64,000 bases of DNA from Pseudomonas azotoformans (GTDB lineage Bacteria; Pseudomonadota; Gammaproteobacteria; Pseudomonadales; Pseudomonadaceae): the NCBI RefSeq assembly GCF_001579805.1, contig NZ_CP014546.1, positions 5,084,001 to 5,148,000 of the forward strand, given 5' to 3'. Below are positions 16,623-23,122 of the stretch, one piece after another (the first letter of the stretch is position 1; each line of letters opens with the position of its first letter). The notes below the pieces were generated by a model that did not search any database, was not told the origin of the DNA, and was given only the letters and a program-made list of their open reading frames with translations. A program made the position numbers and the translations under genes.

Positions 16623-16895
16623 ATGAGTACTGAAGACAAACGCATACGCGAACTGGCGCATCAGATCTGGGAGTCCGAGGGCAAACCCCATGGTGAAGAT
16701 GCACGCCACTGGGAGATGGCGCGCAAACTGGCAGAAGCCGAAGCGCTGACGCCGAGCAAGCCCAAGGCAGCCGCCAAGCCCAAGGCCAGCGCCCCCAAGC
16801 CGCCGGCGAAAGCCAAACCCGCGGCACCTGCGGCCAGCAAGCCGGCGCCACCGGCCGCTAAAAAACCACCGGCGCCCAAAAAGCCCAAGCCTTGA
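16623..16895 (+). CDS. DUF2934 domain protein with Ala/Lys/Pro-rich tail
   Basis: A 90-residue protein. Residues 4-40 form the DUF2934 motif (RIRELAHQIWESEGKPHGEDARHWEMARKL, seen in parts), a short helical domain of unknown function often encoded beside glg/tre genes. Residues 48-90 are a basic low-complexity tail of AKPKA and APKPP units, probably disordered. GAGGAG lies 9-14 nt upstream of the ATG; a GTG one codon earlier is an alternative start. A gene of this kind lies at the same place, between treY and glgX, in P. aeruginosa. No enzymatic role should be assumed. Confidence 0.82.
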   Translation: MSTEDKRIRELAHQIWESEGKPHGEDARHWEMARKLAEAEALTPSKPKAAAKPKASAPKPPAKAKPAAPAASKPAPPAAKKPPAPKKPKP

Positions 16896-17014: not shown

Positions 17015-19174
17015 ATGAGCAAACCCGATAAAACCCCTTCGACGCCGGGCAGCGAGCCGTCGCGGATTCGTGAAGGTTTGCCCTTCCCCCTCGGCGCCAC
17101 CTGGGACGGCCTGGGTGTCAACTTTGCCTTGTTCTCGGCCAACGCGACCAAGGTCGAACTGTGCCTGTTCGATGATTCCGGCGAAGTCGAGCTGGAGCGC
17201 ATCGAACTGCCCGAATACACCGACGAAACCTTCCATGGCTACCTGCCCGACGCCCATCCAGGGCTGATTTACGGCTATCGCGTATACGGTGCGTATGACC
17301 CCGCCAACGGCCACCGTTTCAACCACAACAAATTGCTGATCGACCCCTACGCCAAGCAATTGGTGGGCGAGCTGAAATGGTCCGAGGCGTTGTTCGGCTA
17401 CACCATCGGCCACCCGGACGACGACCTCAGTTTCGATGAACGCGACAGCGCACCCTTCGTGCCCAAATGCAAAGTCATTGACCCGGCACACACCTGGGGC
17501 AACGACCAGCCGGTGCGCGTGCCGTGGGATCGCACCATCATCTACGAGACCCATCTGCGCGGCATCAGCATGCGCCACCCTTCCGTGGGCGAATCCGTGC
17601 GCGGCACCTGCGCCGGCTTGATGGAAGACGACGTGCTCAAGCACATCCGCCAGTTGGGCGTGTCGTCGGTCGAGCTGCTGCCCGTGCATGCCTTCGTCAA
17701 TGACCAGCACTTGCTGCAAAAAGGCATGACCAACTATTGGGGCTACAACAGCATCGCGTTTTTCGCCCCCGACCCGCGCTACCTGGCCAGCGGCAAGATC
17801 GCCGAGTTCAAGGAGATGGTCGCGCACCTGCATGAGCAGAAGCTCGAGGTGATCCTCGACGTGGTCTACAACCACACTGCCGAAGGCAACGAGCGCGGCC
17901 CGACCCTGTCCATGCGTGGTATCGACAACGCTTCCTACTATCGGCTGATGCCGGATGACAAGCGTTTCTACATCAACGATTCCGGCACCGGCAACACCCT
18001 GGACTTGAGCCATCCGTGCGTATTGCAGATGGTCACCGACTCCCTGCGTTACTGGGCCAATGAGATGCACGTCGACGGGTTCCGCTTCGACTTGGCAACC
18101 ATTCTTGGCCGTTACCGCGATGGTTTCGACGAGCGCCACAGCTTCCTCGTTGCCTGCCGCCAGGACCCGGTATTGCGCCAGCTCAAACTGATCGCCGAAC
18201 CCTGGGACTGCGGCCCCGGCGGCTATCAGGTGGGCAACTTCCCACCGGGCTGGGTCGAATGGAACGACCGCTTCCGCGACACCGTGCGGGCCTTCTGGAA
18301 AGGCGATGACGGCCAACTGGCGGACTTTGCCGGGCGCATGACCGCCTCCGGCGAGATGTTCAACCATCGTGGCCGCCGTCCTTACAGTTCGGTGAACTTC
18401 ATCACCGCCCACGACGGTTTCACCCTGCACGATCTGGTGTCCTACAACGACAAGCACAACGAGGCCAACGACGAAAACAACCAGGACGGCAGCAATAACA
18501 ACCTGTCCTGGAACCATGGCGTCGAAGGGCCGACCGACGACCCGGAAATCAACGCGCTGCGCCTGCGTCAGATGCGCAACTTCTTCGCCACTTTGCTGTT
18601 GGCCCAAGGTACGCCGATGATCGTGGCCGGTGATGAGTTCGCCCGCACCCAGCACGGCAACAACAACGCCTATTGCCAGGACAGCGAGATCGGCTGGGTC
18701 AACTGGGACCTGGATGATGACGGCAAAGCCCTGCTCAAGTTTGTGAAACGCTTGATCAAATTGCGCCTGGCCTACCCGATCCTGCGTCGTGGCCGCTTCC
18801 TGGTAGGCGACTACAACGAAGACATTGGCGTGAAGGACGTCACCTGGCTCGCGCCGGATGGCAATGAGATGACCACCGAACAGTGGCAAGACAGTCATGG
18901 CCGCTGCCTGGGCATGTTGATGGATGGCCGCGCCCAGGAAACCGGGATTCGTCGTGCCGGCGCCGATGCGACGTTGTTGCTGGTGGTCAATGCCCACCAC
19001 GACATGGTCAATTTCCGCCTGCCGCCGGTGCCCGAGGGCGAGTTCTGGACTTGCATGCTCGACACCAACTCCCCGGCAGTCCGTGGCCAGGAACGCTTTG
19101 ATTTCGATCATGAGTACGCGGTGACTGGCCGCTCGCTGCTGCTGTTCGAATTGCAGCGTGAAGACGAGGTGTGA
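17015..19174 (+). CDS. glgX: Glycogen debranching enzyme GlgX
   Basis: A 719-residue GH13 isoamylase-type enzyme that hydrolyses alpha-1,6 branches left on limit glucan. An N-terminal CBM48-like domain (PFPLGATWDGLGVNFALFSA, about 25-110) precedes the barrel. Catalytic residues by motif are D359 (GFRFDLATILGR), E395 (IAEPWDCGPGGYQVGNFPPG in part) and D467 (ITAHDGFTLHDL). GCAGGAG precedes the ATG. Released linear maltodextrins would feed MalQ and TreY. The stop is followed after a single base by the next gene, which ties the downstream four-gene cassette to glgX. Confidence 0.95.
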   Translation: MSKPDKTPSTPGSEPSRIREGLPFPLGATWDGLGVNFALFSANATKVELCLFDDSGEVELERIELPEYTDETFHGYLPDAHPGLIYGYRVYGAYDPANGHRFNHNKLLIDPYAKQLVGELKWSEALFGYTIGHPDDDLSFDERDSAPFVPKCKVIDPAHTWGNDQPVRVPWDRTIIYETHLRGISMRHPSVGESVRGTCAGLMEDDVLKHIRQLGVSSVELLPVHAFVNDQHLLQKGMTNYWGYNSIAFFAPDPRYLASGKIAEFKEMVAHLHEQKLEVILDVVYNHTAEGNERGPTLSMRGIDNASYYRLMPDDKRFYINDSGTGNTLDLSHPCVLQMVTDSLRYWANEMHVDGFRFDLATILGRYRDGFDERHSFLVACRQDPVLRQLKLIAEPWDCGPGGYQVGNFPPGWVEWNDRFRDTVRAFWKGDDGQLADFAGRMTASGEMFNHRGRRPYSSVNFITAHDGFTLHDLVSYNDKHNEANDENNQDGSNNNLSWNHGVEGPTDDPEINALRLRQMRNFFATLLLAQGTPMIVAGDEFARTQHGNNNAYCQDSEIGWVNWDLDDDGKALLKFVKRLIKLRLAYPILRRGRFLVGDYNEDIGVKDVTWLAPDGNEMTTEQWQDSHGRCLGMLMDGRAQETGIRRAGADATLLLVVNAHHDMVNFRLPPVPEGEFWTCMLDTNSPAVRGQERFDFDHEYAVTGRSLLLFELQREDEV

Positions 19175-19175
19175 A

Positions 19176-20174
19176 ATGGCACTGCATGGATTCCTTCAAG
19201 GCTACCGGGGCTATGCGGACACGCAAGCCCTGGGCGCGGCCCTGAAGGCGCTTCAGGAGGAAGGCCTGGACCAACTGCCCTTGCCGGGCAGCGGTCAGAC
19301 ATTGGCGCGGTTCAGCCGCTTGGCACAGGTGGCAGGCCATGACCTGCGCCTGTGCAAGTTGTTCGAAGGCCACACCGACGCCTTGGCGATCATCGCCGAA
19401 CTCAACAGTCCGTTGCCGCCCTTGGGCAGCATTTGGGGCATGTGGGCGGCGGAGCCACCCACCGCCAAGGTACGCGTCTTCAACGACGGCCAGCGTTTGA
19501 AGGTGCAAGGGCGTAAAGCCTGGTGTTCCGGTGCGGCGGTGGTCAGCCATGGCTTGCTGACGGCCTGGGACGAAGAAGACCGCCAGCAACTGGTGGCAGT
19601 GCCTATGGATCAACCGGGCGTCGTCGTCACGGACGAAGGCTGGAACGCCGTGGGCATGGCCGCCACCGGCAGTGTGGAAATCGTGTTTGACCAGGCCTGG
19701 GGGCTGGCCGTGGGCGGACCCGGTGATTACCTGGCTCGGCCCGGATTCTGGCAAGGCGGCATTGGCATTGCTGCCTGCTGGTATGGCGCGGCGCAACGCC
19801 TGGCGGAAGTCTTGCGTGAGCAGTGCAGCAAACGCCCCGAACCCCACGCCCTCGCCCACCTCGGCGCAGTCGACAGCGCACTCAACAGCGCCGCCTGTGT
19901 ACTGCGCGCCAGCGCGGAACAGGTCGATCGAGAACCCAGGGCCAATGCCAGGGAGTTGGCGCAACAGACTCGGGCGTGCATCGAAGACACCGTCGAACAG
20001 GTGATGCGCCACGTGGGTCGGGCCGTCGGTGCGGGGCCCTATTGCAAGGATCCGCATTTCGCCCAGTTGATGGCGGACTTGCCGGTGTATATGCGCCAGA
20101 GTCACGCCGAACGCGACTTGGCCGGCCTTGGCGAGTTGGTCGCCGGCGAACCCACAGGGAGGTGGCAGTTATGA
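19176..20174 (+). CDS. Acyl-CoA dehydrogenase-like protein (degenerate)
   Basis: A 332-residue protein, shorter than the usual 380-400 of the family. The ACAD middle domain is recognisable: GRKAWCSGAAVVSHGLLTAW, VTDEGWNAVGMAATGSVEIVFD, then a helical C-terminal domain with FWQGGIGIAACWYGAAQRLAEVL. The family flavin signature LTEP-x-x-GSD is not present; the matching place reads WAAEPPTAKV, so flavin binding or chemistry may be altered. I start at the ATG at 19176, one base after the glgX stop (ribosome site GACGAGGTG inside glgX). The stop overlaps the PIG-L gene (ATGA). Function unknown; it opens the cassette. Confidence 0.75.
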   Translation: MALHGFLQGYRGYADTQALGAALKALQEEGLDQLPLPGSGQTLARFSRLAQVAGHDLRLCKLFEGHTDALAIIAELNSPLPPLGSIWGMWAAEPPTAKVRVFNDGQRLKVQGRKAWCSGAAVVSHGLLTAWDEEDRQQLVAVPMDQPGVVVTDEGWNAVGMAATGSVEIVFDQAWGLAVGGPGDYLARPGFWQGGIGIAACWYGAAQRLAEVLREQCSKRPEPHALAHLGAVDSALNSAACVLRASAEQVDREPRANARELAQQTRACIEDTVEQVMRHVGRAVGAGPYCKDPHFAQLMADLPVYMRQSHAERDLAGLGELVAGEPTGRWQL

Positions 20175-20929
20175 AACCCAATCCAATCGTTGGCCAAGGC
20201 ACGCCGCTGCATCGCTGGCAGGCGTCGCCGAAGATGGCCGAGCTGCCGCCGATCAGCGTTGAGCAGTTGGTGCCCGAAGGCTATCGGGCGGTGATCGTCG
20301 CCCCCCATCCGGATGATGAAGTGTTGGGGTGTGGTGGCTTGATGCAGGGGCTCGCGGCACTCGGCCGGGCCATCCAGCTGATTTCAGTCACCGATGGCAG
20401 CGCCAGTCATCCGGGCTCGCGGCGTTGGCCGGTTGAGCGTTTGAGTGTGGTGCGCCCGCAGGAATCGGCCCAGGCCCTGCATCGTCTTGGCTTGCCGCTG
20501 CACAGCCTGAAATGGCTGCGGGCCGGGTTTGCCGACAGTCAGGTGGCGGCGCGGGAAGATGAACTCGCGGCGTTCATCCAGCGTTACCTCAAACCCACCG
20601 ACGTGGTGTTTACCACTTGGCGCGAAGATGGGCATTGCGACCACGAAGCCGTCGGTCGTGCCAGCGCCAAGGCAGCCTCGGCTGTAGGCGCAACCCTGTA
20701 CGAACTGCCGGTATGGACCTGGCACTGGGCAACGCCCGAAGACAACCAAGTGCCCTGGCATCGCGCCCGCAAGATCCCATTGACCTGTGAAGCGGTCGCC
20801 CGCAAACGCCACGCCATCCATGCCTTCGCCAGCCAGTTGGAGGGCGACCCGCAGATCGGCCTGGCGCCGGTACTGGCACCCTACGTGGTGGAGCGCCTGC
20901 TGCAGCCCTTCGAAGTGGTATTCGTATGA
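20171..20929 (+). CDS. PIG-L (LmbE) family deacetylase, catalytically intact
   Basis: A 252-residue zinc-dependent N-deacetylase of the PIG-L/LmbE/MshB fold, which typically removes acetyl from an N-acetylated amino sugar. Metal ligands by comparison with MshB are H46 and D49 in PHPDDE plus H158 in HCDH; the general base D48 and the second catalytic histidine H155 are also present. ITDGSASHP-type segment (SVTDGSASHPGS) and VVRPQES follow. No signal peptide, so cytoplasmic. Start at 20171 overlaps the upstream stop and the end overlaps the methyltransferase start. Substrate unknown; a GT2 product is a reasonable guess. Confidence 0.88.
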   Translation: MKPNPIVGQGTPLHRWQASPKMAELPPISVEQLVPEGYRAVIVAPHPDDEVLGCGGLMQGLAALGRAIQLISVTDGSASHPGSRRWPVERLSVVRPQESAQALHRLGLPLHSLKWLRAGFADSQVAAREDELAAFIQRYLKPTDVVFTTWREDGHCDHEAVGRASAKAASAVGATLYELPVWTWHWATPEDNQVPWHRARKIPLTCEAVARKRHAIHAFASQLEGDPQIGLAPVLAPYVVERLLQPFEVVFV

Positions 20930-21525
20930 GCGTAGCTACGCCGTATTTCGACCAATTGTTCGCCGAAAATGATGACCCCTGGGCCTTTCGCCAACGCTGG
21001 TACGAACGCCGTAAACGCGCGTTGACCCTGGCCCTACTCACACGACCACGTTATGCCTCGGCGTTCGAGCCCGGATGCGCCAATGGCGAGCTGAGCTTCG
21101 AACTGGCGCCCCGCTGTGACCGCCTGCTGTGCTGCGACACGGCTTCGGCCGCCGTAGCCTTGGCGCGCAGTCGTTTGCAGGGCTTTCCCCAGGCTCAGGT
21201 GCAGCAAAGCCGCTTGCCCGAACAGTGGCCCACGGGCCGGTTCGAGCTAATTGTATTGAGCGAGCTGTGTTACTACCTCGATGCCGACGACCTGTGCCGG
21301 TTGATCGAACGCGTGCGCACCTCGTTGACCGACGACGGCCAGGTGCTGGCCTGCCATTGGCGCCCGCCTATCGAAGGTTGCCCGCAAACGGCCGAGCAGG
21401 TGCATGCCCTGCTTCAGGAGCGGCTGGATATGCCTCGCGTGACCAGCCACCACGAACACGACTTCCTGCTCGACCTGTGGAGCCGCGACGGCACTTCGGT
21501 CGCCACCCTTGAGGGCCTGCGATGA
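20926..21525 (+). CDS. NodS-like SAM-dependent methyltransferase
   Basis: A 199-residue class I methyltransferase. The N-terminus YFDQLFAENDDPWAFRQRWYERRKRA and motif I FEPGCANGELS resemble NodS, which N-methylates the deacetylated glucosamine of Nod factors. Motif II is CDTASAAVALAR and the motif IV region is LIVLSELCYYLD. No membrane segment. Coupled on both sides by ATGA overlaps with the PIG-L deacetylase and the glycosyltransferase. The order deacetylase then methyltransferase suggests methylation of a newly exposed amine, but this is inference and the acceptor is unknown. Confidence 0.82.
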   Translation: MSVATPYFDQLFAENDDPWAFRQRWYERRKRALTLALLTRPRYASAFEPGCANGELSFELAPRCDRLLCCDTASAAVALARSRLQGFPQAQVQQSRLPEQWPTGRFELIVLSELCYYLDADDLCRLIERVRTSLTDDGQVLACHWRPPIEGCPQTAEQVHALLQERLDMPRVTSHHEHDFLLDLWSRDGTSVATLEGLR

Positions 21526-22181
21526 TCGGCATTCTGATCCCGGTACACAACGAAGAGGCCCTGCTGGGCGACTGCCTGAGAGCGGCACTGATCGCGGCCA
21601 GTCATCCGGGTTTATTCGGCGAAGCCGTGACTGTCTTGGTGGTACTCGACAGTTGCAGCGATGCAAGTGCCGCCATTGCCCAGGCCTATCCCGTGCAATG
21701 GCTTGAAGCCCAGGCACGCAATGTCGGGCATGTTCGAGGCGTGGGTGCGCGGCATCTGCTCAACCAGGGCGCCCGCTGGATTTCGTGCACCGATGCCGAC
21801 AGCCGCGTGGCGCCTGATTGGCTGGTGGCCCAGTTGGCACTGGGGGCCGACGCAGTATGCGGCACCGTCACCGTGGACGCCTGGAGCGAAGGCTTCGACC
21901 CGGCTGCGCAGATTCGCTACAACCAGGGTTACGAGGCGCGAGACGGCCATCGACACATCCATGGTGCCAACTTGGGCGTGAGCGCAGGCGCTTATGTGCG
22001 CGCGGGTGGTTTCGAGCCCCTGGCGTGCCATGAGGATGTGCAACTGGTGCGTAACCTGGAGCTGTGCGGCGCCTCCATCGCCTGGAGCCACAGCCCGCAA
22101 GTGATCACCAGTGCGCGCCTGGATGCTCGCGCACAGGGCGGTTTCGGCGATTACTTGAAGAGCTTGATGCACGCCACTTGA
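21522..22181 (+). CDS. Family 2 glycosyltransferase, short
   Basis: A 219-residue GT-A type glycosyltransferase. It starts MIGILIPVHNEEALLGDCL, has VVLDSCSDASAAIA for the nucleotide pocket, CTDADSRVAPDWL with the metal-binding DAD at the usual place, and GANLGVSAGAYVRAGGFEPLACHEDVQL for the acceptor side. The membrane spans and QxxRW motif of processive enzymes such as NodC are absent, so it probably adds a single sugar in the cytoplasm. Last gene of the coupled cassette; a 179-bp gap follows before the second PIG-L gene. Confidence 0.85.
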   Translation: MIGILIPVHNEEALLGDCLRAALIAASHPGLFGEAVTVLVVLDSCSDASAAIAQAYPVQWLEAQARNVGHVRGVGARHLLNQGARWISCTDADSRVAPDWLVAQLALGADAVCGTVTVDAWSEGFDPAAQIRYNQGYEARDGHRHIHGANLGVSAGAYVRAGGFEPLACHEDVQLVRNLELCGASIAWSHSPQVITSARLDARAQGGFGDYLKSLMHAT

Positions 22182-22219: not shown

Positions 22220-22229
22220 TGTCTATGCT
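22220..22229 (+). promoter_or_regulatory. Possible extended -10 (sigma-S type) element before the second PIG-L gene
   Basis: TGTCTATGCT fits an extended -10 of the RpoS kind (CTATACT with one difference) 132 nt before the ATG. No good -35 hexamer is seen, which is tolerated by RpoS. Stress-phase expression would agree with the nearby trehalose genes. The call is weak. Confidence 0.3.
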
Positions 22230-22360
22230 GATGACGCCTTGCTGGCGTTCCAGGGTTGGGGCGTCATGCAGCCACTGCGGCGGAGCCTGTGGTGGATAAA
22301 AGAGTGTCGTCCCGTCAACGGGCCACGACCCAGCATCAATCGACAAGGATGTGACACCCC

Positions 22361-23122
22361 ATGAAGCTTGCTTCCTTAAGCGACGGCCGTAGCGGCCCTG
22401 CGCAAATCTGGAACAGCGCCCCGCAGCTGGCGCAAATTCCCCCGATCACCTCGTCCTCACTGGTGCCGCCTGGCGCACGCGTGGTCATCATCGCGCCCCA
22501 CCCCGGCGACGAAGTGCTGGCCTGCGGGGGCCTGCTGCAACTGCTCAGTACCTTGGAGCATCCCCTGCAACTCATCTCCATCACGGATGGCAGCGCCAGT
22601 CACCCAGGGTCCAACGTCTGGCCGGCCAGCCGCCTGAGCGTGGTGCGGCCCCAGGAAAGCGTCGAGGCCATGCGCCGCCTGGGCATGCCCCTGCACAGTT
22701 TGAAGTGGATCCGCGGTGGGTTCTGTGACGACGCCCTCGCCAGCCGCGAGCCGCAACTGAGCCAATTCATTGCACGCTACTTGCTACCGGGCGATGTGGT
22801 GTTCAGCACGTGGCGTAACGACGGCAATGACGATCACGACACTGTTGGCCGTGCCAGCGCCAATGCCTGCTGCCTGGTGGGCGCGCAACTGTATGAGCTA
22901 CCTATCTGGGCCTGGCACTGGCCTGCCCGCGAAGGCGCGATCATCCCCTGGCAACGGGCACGCAAGGTGCGGCTGGACACCTGGACCGTGGCGCGCAAGC
23001 TTCACGCCGCCCATGCCTATGCCAGCCAATTGGCCGGCGACCCGGCCATCGGTCTGGCGCCCATGCTGGCCCAGGTGCTGCTGGAGAGAATGCGCGAACC
23101 CTATGAGATCGTGCTGTCGTAG
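22361..23122 (+). CDS. PIG-L family protein, paralogue with altered active site
   Basis: A 253-residue paralogue of the PIG-L protein at 20171, sharing long identical blocks (LISITDGSASHPGS, RLSVVRPQES, LPLHSLKW-like). The zinc ligands H47, D50 and H159 remain. The base Asp is replaced by Gly (PHPGDE, G49) and the first His of the HxxH motif by Asn (NDDH, N156). In MshB those two positions are the general base and a catalytic His, so hydrolysis should be poor or mechanistically different. It has its own upstream gap. Role could be sugar binding, regulation of the active paralogue, or a changed reaction. Confidence 0.85.
   Translation: MKLASLSDGRSGPAQIWNSAPQLAQIPPITSSSLVPPGARVVIIAPHPGDEVLACGGLLQLLSTLEHPLQLISITDGSASHPGSNVWPASRLSVVRPQESVEAMRRLGMPLHSLKWIRGGFCDDALASREPQLSQFIARYLLPGDVVFSTWRNDGNDDHDTVGRASANACCLVGAQLYELPIWAWHWPAREGAIIPWQRARKVRLDTWTVARKLHAAHAYASQLAGDPAIGLAPMLAQVLLERMREPYEIVLS

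Follow-up and report, generated by a model that had tools for sequence, protein, structure and literature searches.

What do four overlapping genes placed directly behind glgX, the gene of a glycogen debranching enzyme, have to do with one another, and what might their products make together? This question is raised by a stretch of 64,000 nucleotides of Pseudomonas azotoformans (assembly GCF_001579805.1, contig NZ_CP014546.1, positions 5,084,001 to 5,148,000), in the following called the window. Its glgX stop codon (19172-19174) and the ATG of an acyl-CoA dehydrogenase (ACAD)-like gene (19176) have one base between them, and ATGA overlaps at 20171-20174, 20926-20929, and 21522-21525 join this gene, on the plus strand, to those of a PIG-L deacetylase, a NodS-like methyltransferase, and a family 2 glycosyltransferase (GT2). 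The first gene of this cassette, a core member, encodes an ACAD-fold protein of 332 amino acids (19176..20174), and its PF02770 score of 32.8 bits lies just below the cut-off of 33.3. It is followed by a PIG-L/LmbE zinc deacetylase of 252 amino acids (PIGL1, 20171..20929; PF02585, 92.7 bits versus 28.2), a methyltransferase of 199 amino acids dependent on S-adenosylmethionine (SAM) (20926..21525; PF05401 NodS, 49.7 bits versus 24), and a small GT-A family 2 glycosyltransferase of 219 amino acids (21522..22181; PF00535, 39.5 bits versus 23.3). A preliminary description of this DNA had named the one-base gap, the three overlaps, and the families, and had read the four genes as one pathway; the coordinates agree, and apart from the ACAD-like protein all families score above their Pfam cut-offs.

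Co-Occurrence of the Four Genes

Loci were retrieved solely by the ACAD-like gene and then screened for the other three genes (E 1e-4 or better) by means of profiles that had been trained in steps on these loci. The 49 loci from outside the window's genus in GTDB have three sources. An even phylum draw of 398 genomes gave 29 matches, of which five belong to the genus of the window and the other 24 were used; a class draw of 369 genomes gave seven matches and added four new loci; and 21 plasmid regions, 16 of them annotated, were selected so as to be diverse among the 65 and 76 matching records of two lists. With the window included, 40 of 50 loci have the full set no more than 6 kb from ACAD; in two of these, the PIG-L match is weak (31 and 34 bits). 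In 38 of the 50, each of the four genes exceeded 100 bits. The phylum draw alone gave 19 of 24. Complete sets occur in Gamma-, Beta-, and Alphaproteobacteria, Streptomycetaceae, Deinococcus, and Nostoc, and the set stays together under varying gene orders, in which GT2 may lead or diverge, or ACAD may come last. Among 95 Pseudomonas-type loci, consisting of 15 loci and the best 80 of 555 confirmed stretches and including one titled gamma proteobacterium L18, 83 carry all four genes; two pairs of these loci have an identical ACAD core. As controls served 20 loci around weakly scoring ACAD paralogues, all from Pseudomonas and not genus-matched to the phylum draw. They revealed no PIG-L and no GT2 (0 of 20 each); 13 of the 20 matched the NodS profile, but weakly and with no more than 30.5 bits.

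Pairwise protein distances over 38 loci are correlated for GT2-ACAD (0.91), PIG-L-ACAD (0.80), GT2-PIG-L (0.75), NodS-ACAD (0.64), NodS-PIG-L (0.62), and GT2-NodS (0.59), with 0 of 1000 permutations for each pair and host descent still contained in these values. An alternative would be that co-regulated general-stress genes have gathered in stress islands and share no pathway, as the diverse stress genes in the neighborhood would allow; for Bradyrhizobium, passages of one study place trehalose genes under sigma-EcfG general-stress control (PMC8092242). Overlapping reading frames, the cohesion of the four genes through several orders and phyla, their correlated divergence, and the exchange of the deacetylase for an unrelated enzyme, described below, argue against such an assembly, which we regard as quite improbable. 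The four genes almost certainly represent a real and widely shared unit, and the single pathway claimed for them is supported by the overlaps and by co-inheritance of the four families beyond close relatives.

Grouped by identity and not by a tree, the sequences fall into a short group (Pseudomonas, Burkholderiales, Acinetobacter, Streptomyces, Kitasatospora, and Embleya) and a longer group (Alphaproteobacteria, Deinococcus, Nostoc, and, tentatively, Rubrobacter). Streptomycete copies are 43-46% identical to the window and alphaproteobacterial ones about 30%; as the former are nearer, passage of the cassette between phyla is suggested. Of 72,556 plasmid records, 65 matched the window's ACAD and 76 an alphaproteobacterial ACAD, and the plasmid copies together with the cross-phylum identities point to a unit that would move, and be inherited, as a whole. 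Several of the matching plasmid records, with sizes of 2-6 Mb, are possibly chromosomes or chromids; three of Acinetobacter baumannii (NZ_CP077849, NZ_CP064203, and NZ_CP104448; 3.7-4.1 Mb), filed as plasmids, resemble chromosomes. In two genomes (G810 and G838), the ACAD-like gene is present in two slightly overlapping pieces, as if frameshifted.

The PIG-L Deacetylase and Its Replacement in Rubrobacter

According to passages of a study of the family, PIG-L enzymes share the motif HXD1D2+H with D1 as the general base (PMC4101496). Both PHPDDE and GHxDH are present in the window. D1 is Asp in all 138 aligned cassette copies (136 distinct), and the zinc ligands, the general base, and the equivalent of His144 are kept in the window and in 138 of 138 copies. 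In Rubrobacter indicoceani (L180:7898-12546), a carbohydrate esterase family 4 (CE4) deacetylase is located directly before ACAD and NodS; its best match is NodB with 113.4 bits, under the cut-off of 240, and no PIG-L was found in this 18.9-kb stretch. A pyridine-nucleotide-disulphide oxidoreductase lies between NodS and GT2 in this species. Since an unrelated NodB-like sugar N-deacetylase occupies the place of PIG-L, an N-deacetylation step is supported, and this swap is the best single clue to the chemistry, in favor of the deacetylase and N-methyltransferase logic proposed earlier.

The best named match of the PIG-L protein is BshB1 (TIGR04001, 49.5 bits), and catalase, Dps, and ferritin-like proteins are, next to DUF2383, CsbD, and Ku/LigD, recurrent neighbors of the cassette. 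Both would suit a low-molecular-weight redox cofactor, for which N-methylation and flavin oxidation replace the cysteine ligation of mycothiol and bacillithiol. However, the BshB1 score is far under the cut-off of 182.5, no cysteine-ligase-like gene was seen in the 16 annotated plasmid regions, and the glycosyltransferase is a GT2, whereas those of the BshA/MshA type belong to GT4. We consider a redox cofactor a poor candidate for the product.

The Methyltransferase and the Glycosyltransferase

The NodS-like enzyme has a close solved relative in 4isc (243.5 bits over residues 24-187). GT2 displays the motifs DxD, HGAN, ED, and TSxR, and its model predicts a compact GT-A domain comprising the 219 amino acids; its score with equivalog TIGR04283 is 33.6 bits versus a cut-off of 182, and no match to NodC was obtained in Pfam or NCBIfam. 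Families PIG-L and GT2 often work on glycolipids and polymers, and weak profile matches to exopolysaccharide glycosyltransferases were also noted, both of which would be in line with four enzymes modifying an envelope glycan or glycolipid instead of making a free small molecule. The compact predicted domain of GT2 speaks against this possibility, as does the lack of a polymerase or lipid-carrier gene as a steady neighbor in the 21 plasmid regions (16 annotated), and we judge a role in the envelope to be unlikely.

The ACAD-Fold Protein

The 332-amino-acid protein shows the ACAD fold and is probably a flavoprotein. The catalytic Glu of MCAD-type acyl-CoA dehydrogenases is to be expected eight residues after the Asp of the conserved RD(A) motif. 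This column contains Ser in 19 rows, Pro in four, and Thr, Cys, and Ala in one each, the residue in the window being Ser309; Glu was not found at this MCAD-type site in any of the 26 rows, the IVD-type Glu site not having been tested. An Arg307-Gln308 pair is kept in 26 of 26 rows. With profiles, the best PDB matches are TdsC and DszC, the type of the group D flavin monooxygenases (65.8 and 64.3 bits), versus 50.5, 50.2, and 48.2 bits for chains named acyl-CoA dehydrogenase, and with the single sequence they are KijD3 and nitrososynthase. Identity to solved relatives of the amino-sugar nitrososynthase/DszC type amounts to 15-19%, and the SfnB equivalog TIGR04022 gave 47.5 bits, under its cut-off of 430.9. 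In Deinococcus radiodurans, the ACAD protein (L178:7543-8760) has about 400 extra N-terminal residues, an extension that matched no Pfam family. There, PIG-L and NodS are separated by a helicase gene, and the vicinity yielded no GT2.

Trehalose Genes in the Neighborhood

Trehalose or glucan genes are located within about 8 kb in 5 of 24 loci of the phylum draw, compared to 0 of the 20 unmatched Pseudomonas controls, and the recurring links involve unrelated enzymes. Most clearly in Comamonas antarctica, the cassette is enclosed in an otsA-otsB operon, its ACAD end overlapping with otsA and its GT2 end with otsB. Two further loci (L061 and L066) show the order otsB-otsA-ACAD on one strand and another (L065) treZ-malQ-treY-glgA-ACAD, and in Legionella lytica a trehalose-phosphatase fusion and a GH65 protein precede the cassette. 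In yet another locus (L069:2275-10384), three genes precede NodS and ACAD: one for a GT4-S6PP protein of the sucrose-phosphate synthase/phosphatase type, a marginally GT28-like one, and one of the GT2 family. Downstream, the opposite strand carries a histone-deacetylase-family gene, and no PIG-L was found in this stretch. The link to trehalose and stress put forward in the preliminary description does recur, but in a minority of loci only.

Proposed Pathway

Based on these sequences, we propose that GT2, with a nucleotide sugar as donor, would attach an N-acetyl-amino sugar of the N-acetylglucosamine (GlcNAc) type to a small acceptor, for which a non-reducing solute such as trehalose is a weak suggestion. 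PIG-L would then remove the acetyl group, a step in agreement with its intact catalytic residues and with the NodB-like swap, and the NodS-like enzyme, judged by its family, may methylate the freed amine with SAM. The ACAD-fold protein, more speculatively, might oxidize the product at the amine or at a neighboring carbon. The outcome would be a small N-methylated amino-sugar metabolite formed during water or oxidative stress and accompanied by trehalose in part of the hosts; the N-methylated glycoside of the preliminary description, a solute or signal, is likewise hypothetical. The chances of this four-step scheme and its putative product appear to us to be about even; its chemistry of N-deacetylation and N-methylation is somewhat more probable than that, and the full reading with trehalose as partner or acceptor ranges from doubtful to about even.

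Several observations weigh against the scheme. Ten of the 50 loci are incomplete near ACAD (L055, L058, L069, L072, L074, L165, L174, L177, L178, and L180); among these, L174 is cut by a contig end, and only ACAD was detected in L165 and L177. The exchange of PIG-L for CE4 is known from one species. As the NodS-like enzyme is far below the cut-off of the NodS equivalog NF041650 (61.1 versus 300 bits), its action on nitrogen is a family guess. The GT2 fold matches fucosyl-, GlcNAc-, rhamnosyl-, and mannosyltransferases alike; with four specificities matching, the donor is not fixed by the fold, and its assignment in this way proved impossible. For the ACAD-fold protein, structural scores of true acyl-CoA dehydrogenases and monooxygenases were tied, and a call between the two from the fold was given up; the longer relatives L178 and L070 match acyl-CoA dehydrogenases best. 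Furthermore, by the queries used, to which glgE and treS did not belong, no trehalose or glucan gene was found within about 8 kb in 19 of 24 draw loci. The acceptor guess is therefore weak, and the link to trehalose may reflect shared stress regulation.

glgX and the Second PIG-L Gene

Of 119 genomes drawn evenly from the genus, 77 contain ACAD and 106 glgX; judged from the coordinates, the two genes are neighbors in 54 of the 77 ACAD-bearing genomes. Coupling to glgX is thus frequent in Pseudomonas, but it lies outside the unit. The five most divergent of 15 Pseudomonas loci (L019-L023) have no glgX upstream, and glgX as a member of the unit was rejected on both counts; the coupling that had been claimed is a Pseudomonas arrangement and does not belong to the four genes themselves.

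A second PIG-L gene, absent from the preliminary description, is located about 180 bp past the end of GT2 (PIGL2, 22361..23122, plus strand) and encodes a paralogue with PHPGDE. In 58 PIGL2 copies (56 distinct), counted after a split-frame row (L187_2) had been dropped, the general base is Gly throughout. All 58 keep the first two zinc ligands and 57 the third, and the equivalent of His144 is His in only five. We fetched 19 genomes in which a PIG-L gene comes directly after glgX; the motif is PHPGDE in 17 and AHPGDE in one, and the nineteenth (G786) has the PHPDDE type and is nearer to PIGL1. No ACAD gene was detected in 17 of the 18 PHPGDE/AHPGDE genomes, and the remaining one (G802) has an ACAD/PIG-L pair elsewhere. 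From these lone copies, PIGL2 appears to have a life of its own beside glgX: it is linked to glgX and is not an obligate part of the cassette. The idea of PIGL2 as a partner subunit of the cassette is weakened by the same 17 genomes and G802. Perhaps it is a sugar-binding protein or an altered enzyme. The conserved PHPGDE paralogue is a separate test case for an enzyme kept after loss of its catalytic base.

An RpoS-like -10 element, TCTATGCTGA, is situated upstream of PIGL2 at 22222-22231 (1 match in the window versus 0.44 expected). CTAYRCT was found upstream of PIGL2 in only 6 of 51 related loci versus 1.9 expected, suggesting that the element is lineage-local at best. A sigma-22 (AlgU) promoter was considered and dropped, with 0 matches in the window.

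Taken further, the data may indicate a new class of small protectants, an N-methylated and possibly N-oxidized amino-sugar glycoside made on or alongside trehalose, with the glgX-tied PIGL2 of Pseudomonas binding or sensing a related sugar. Such a protectant might be shared, via plasmids and by descent, among Pseudomonas, Burkholderiales, Acinetobacter, Streptomycetaceae, Deinococcus, and cyanobacteria. We offer this extended reading as a tentative one and rather doubt it as a whole. Nevertheless, a unit kept across phyla, partly beside trehalose and stress genes and also on plasmids, points to an overlooked stress metabolite, and its combined steps would predict a cationic amino sugar.

Gene Neighborhood in the Window

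The region has the order glgA, treZ, malQ, treY, a small open reading frame, glgX (17015..19174, plus strand), the four cassette genes, and PIGL2. All named enzymes upstream exceed their NCBIfam cut-offs: GlgA (888.7 versus 649), TreZ (685.5 versus 538.8), MalQ (345.2 versus 205.65), TreY (1645.4 versus 1411), and GlgX (TIGR02100, 1086.8 versus 640.9 bits). The small open reading frame (16623-16895) between treY and glgX encodes 90 amino acids with an Ala/Pro/Lys-rich end and has no NCBIfam match at E 1e-30. The nearest proteins to those of the window are from P. azotoformans (98%) and P. reactans (97%). Common laboratory pseudomonads are the nearest bench organisms; the ACAD protein of P. simiae, for example, is 91% identical.

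Comparison with Known Systems

In the open-licence PMC literature, as far as its text was covered and with subscription papers outside it, no description of the cassette or its product was found; the unit is apparently undescribed so far, and the preliminary description likewise knew of no product. The genes directly upstream, on the same strand, are those of the Pseudomonas trehalose/alpha-glucan loci (glgA-treZ-malQ-treY-glgX, by NCBIfam names). Passages on P. aeruginosa assign trehalose to osmotic and alpha-glucan to desiccation tolerance (PMC8084333). A study of P. syringae removed glgA-glgX (PSPTO3125-3130) and quantified trehalose, maltose-1-phosphate, and alpha-glucan; a word search of its main text gave no deacetylase, dehydrogenase, or methyltransferase, and genes beyond glgX were apparently not examined there (PMC8982409).

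Glycosyl transfer, N-deacetylation, and, by family, N-methylation are common to the cassette and to Nod factor synthesis by NodC, NodB, and NodS. The cassette methyltransferase is NodS-like and the Rubrobacter deacetylase NodB-like. In contrast, the window and most loci have PIG-L and not CE4; the window's methyltransferase stays under the cut-off of the NodS equivalog, and the Rubrobacter CE4 enzyme under that of NodB. NodC is a larger, membrane-bound, processive chitin-oligosaccharide synthase, whereas the cassette has a small GT2 that does not match it; many carriers of the cassette are not known to live as nodule symbionts. Of the Nod-factor-like scheme first proposed, the deacetylase and N-methyltransferase logic is supported, but the extra ACAD-fold protein is not explained by it.

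The start of mycothiol and bacillithiol synthesis (MshA-MshB and BshA-BshB) likewise combines a glycosyltransferase with a PIG-L zinc deacetylase of the HXDD+H type. The cassette differs from it by a PIG-L under the BshB cut-offs, by its GT2, N-methyltransferase, and ACAD-fold protein, and by annotated regions in which no thiol-adding enzyme was seen. With the amino-sugar nitrososynthases and the flavin monooxygenases DszC, TdsC, and MsuC, the cassette protein has the ACAD fold in common, but it is shorter than these enzymes and carries its own Arg307-Gln308 pair.

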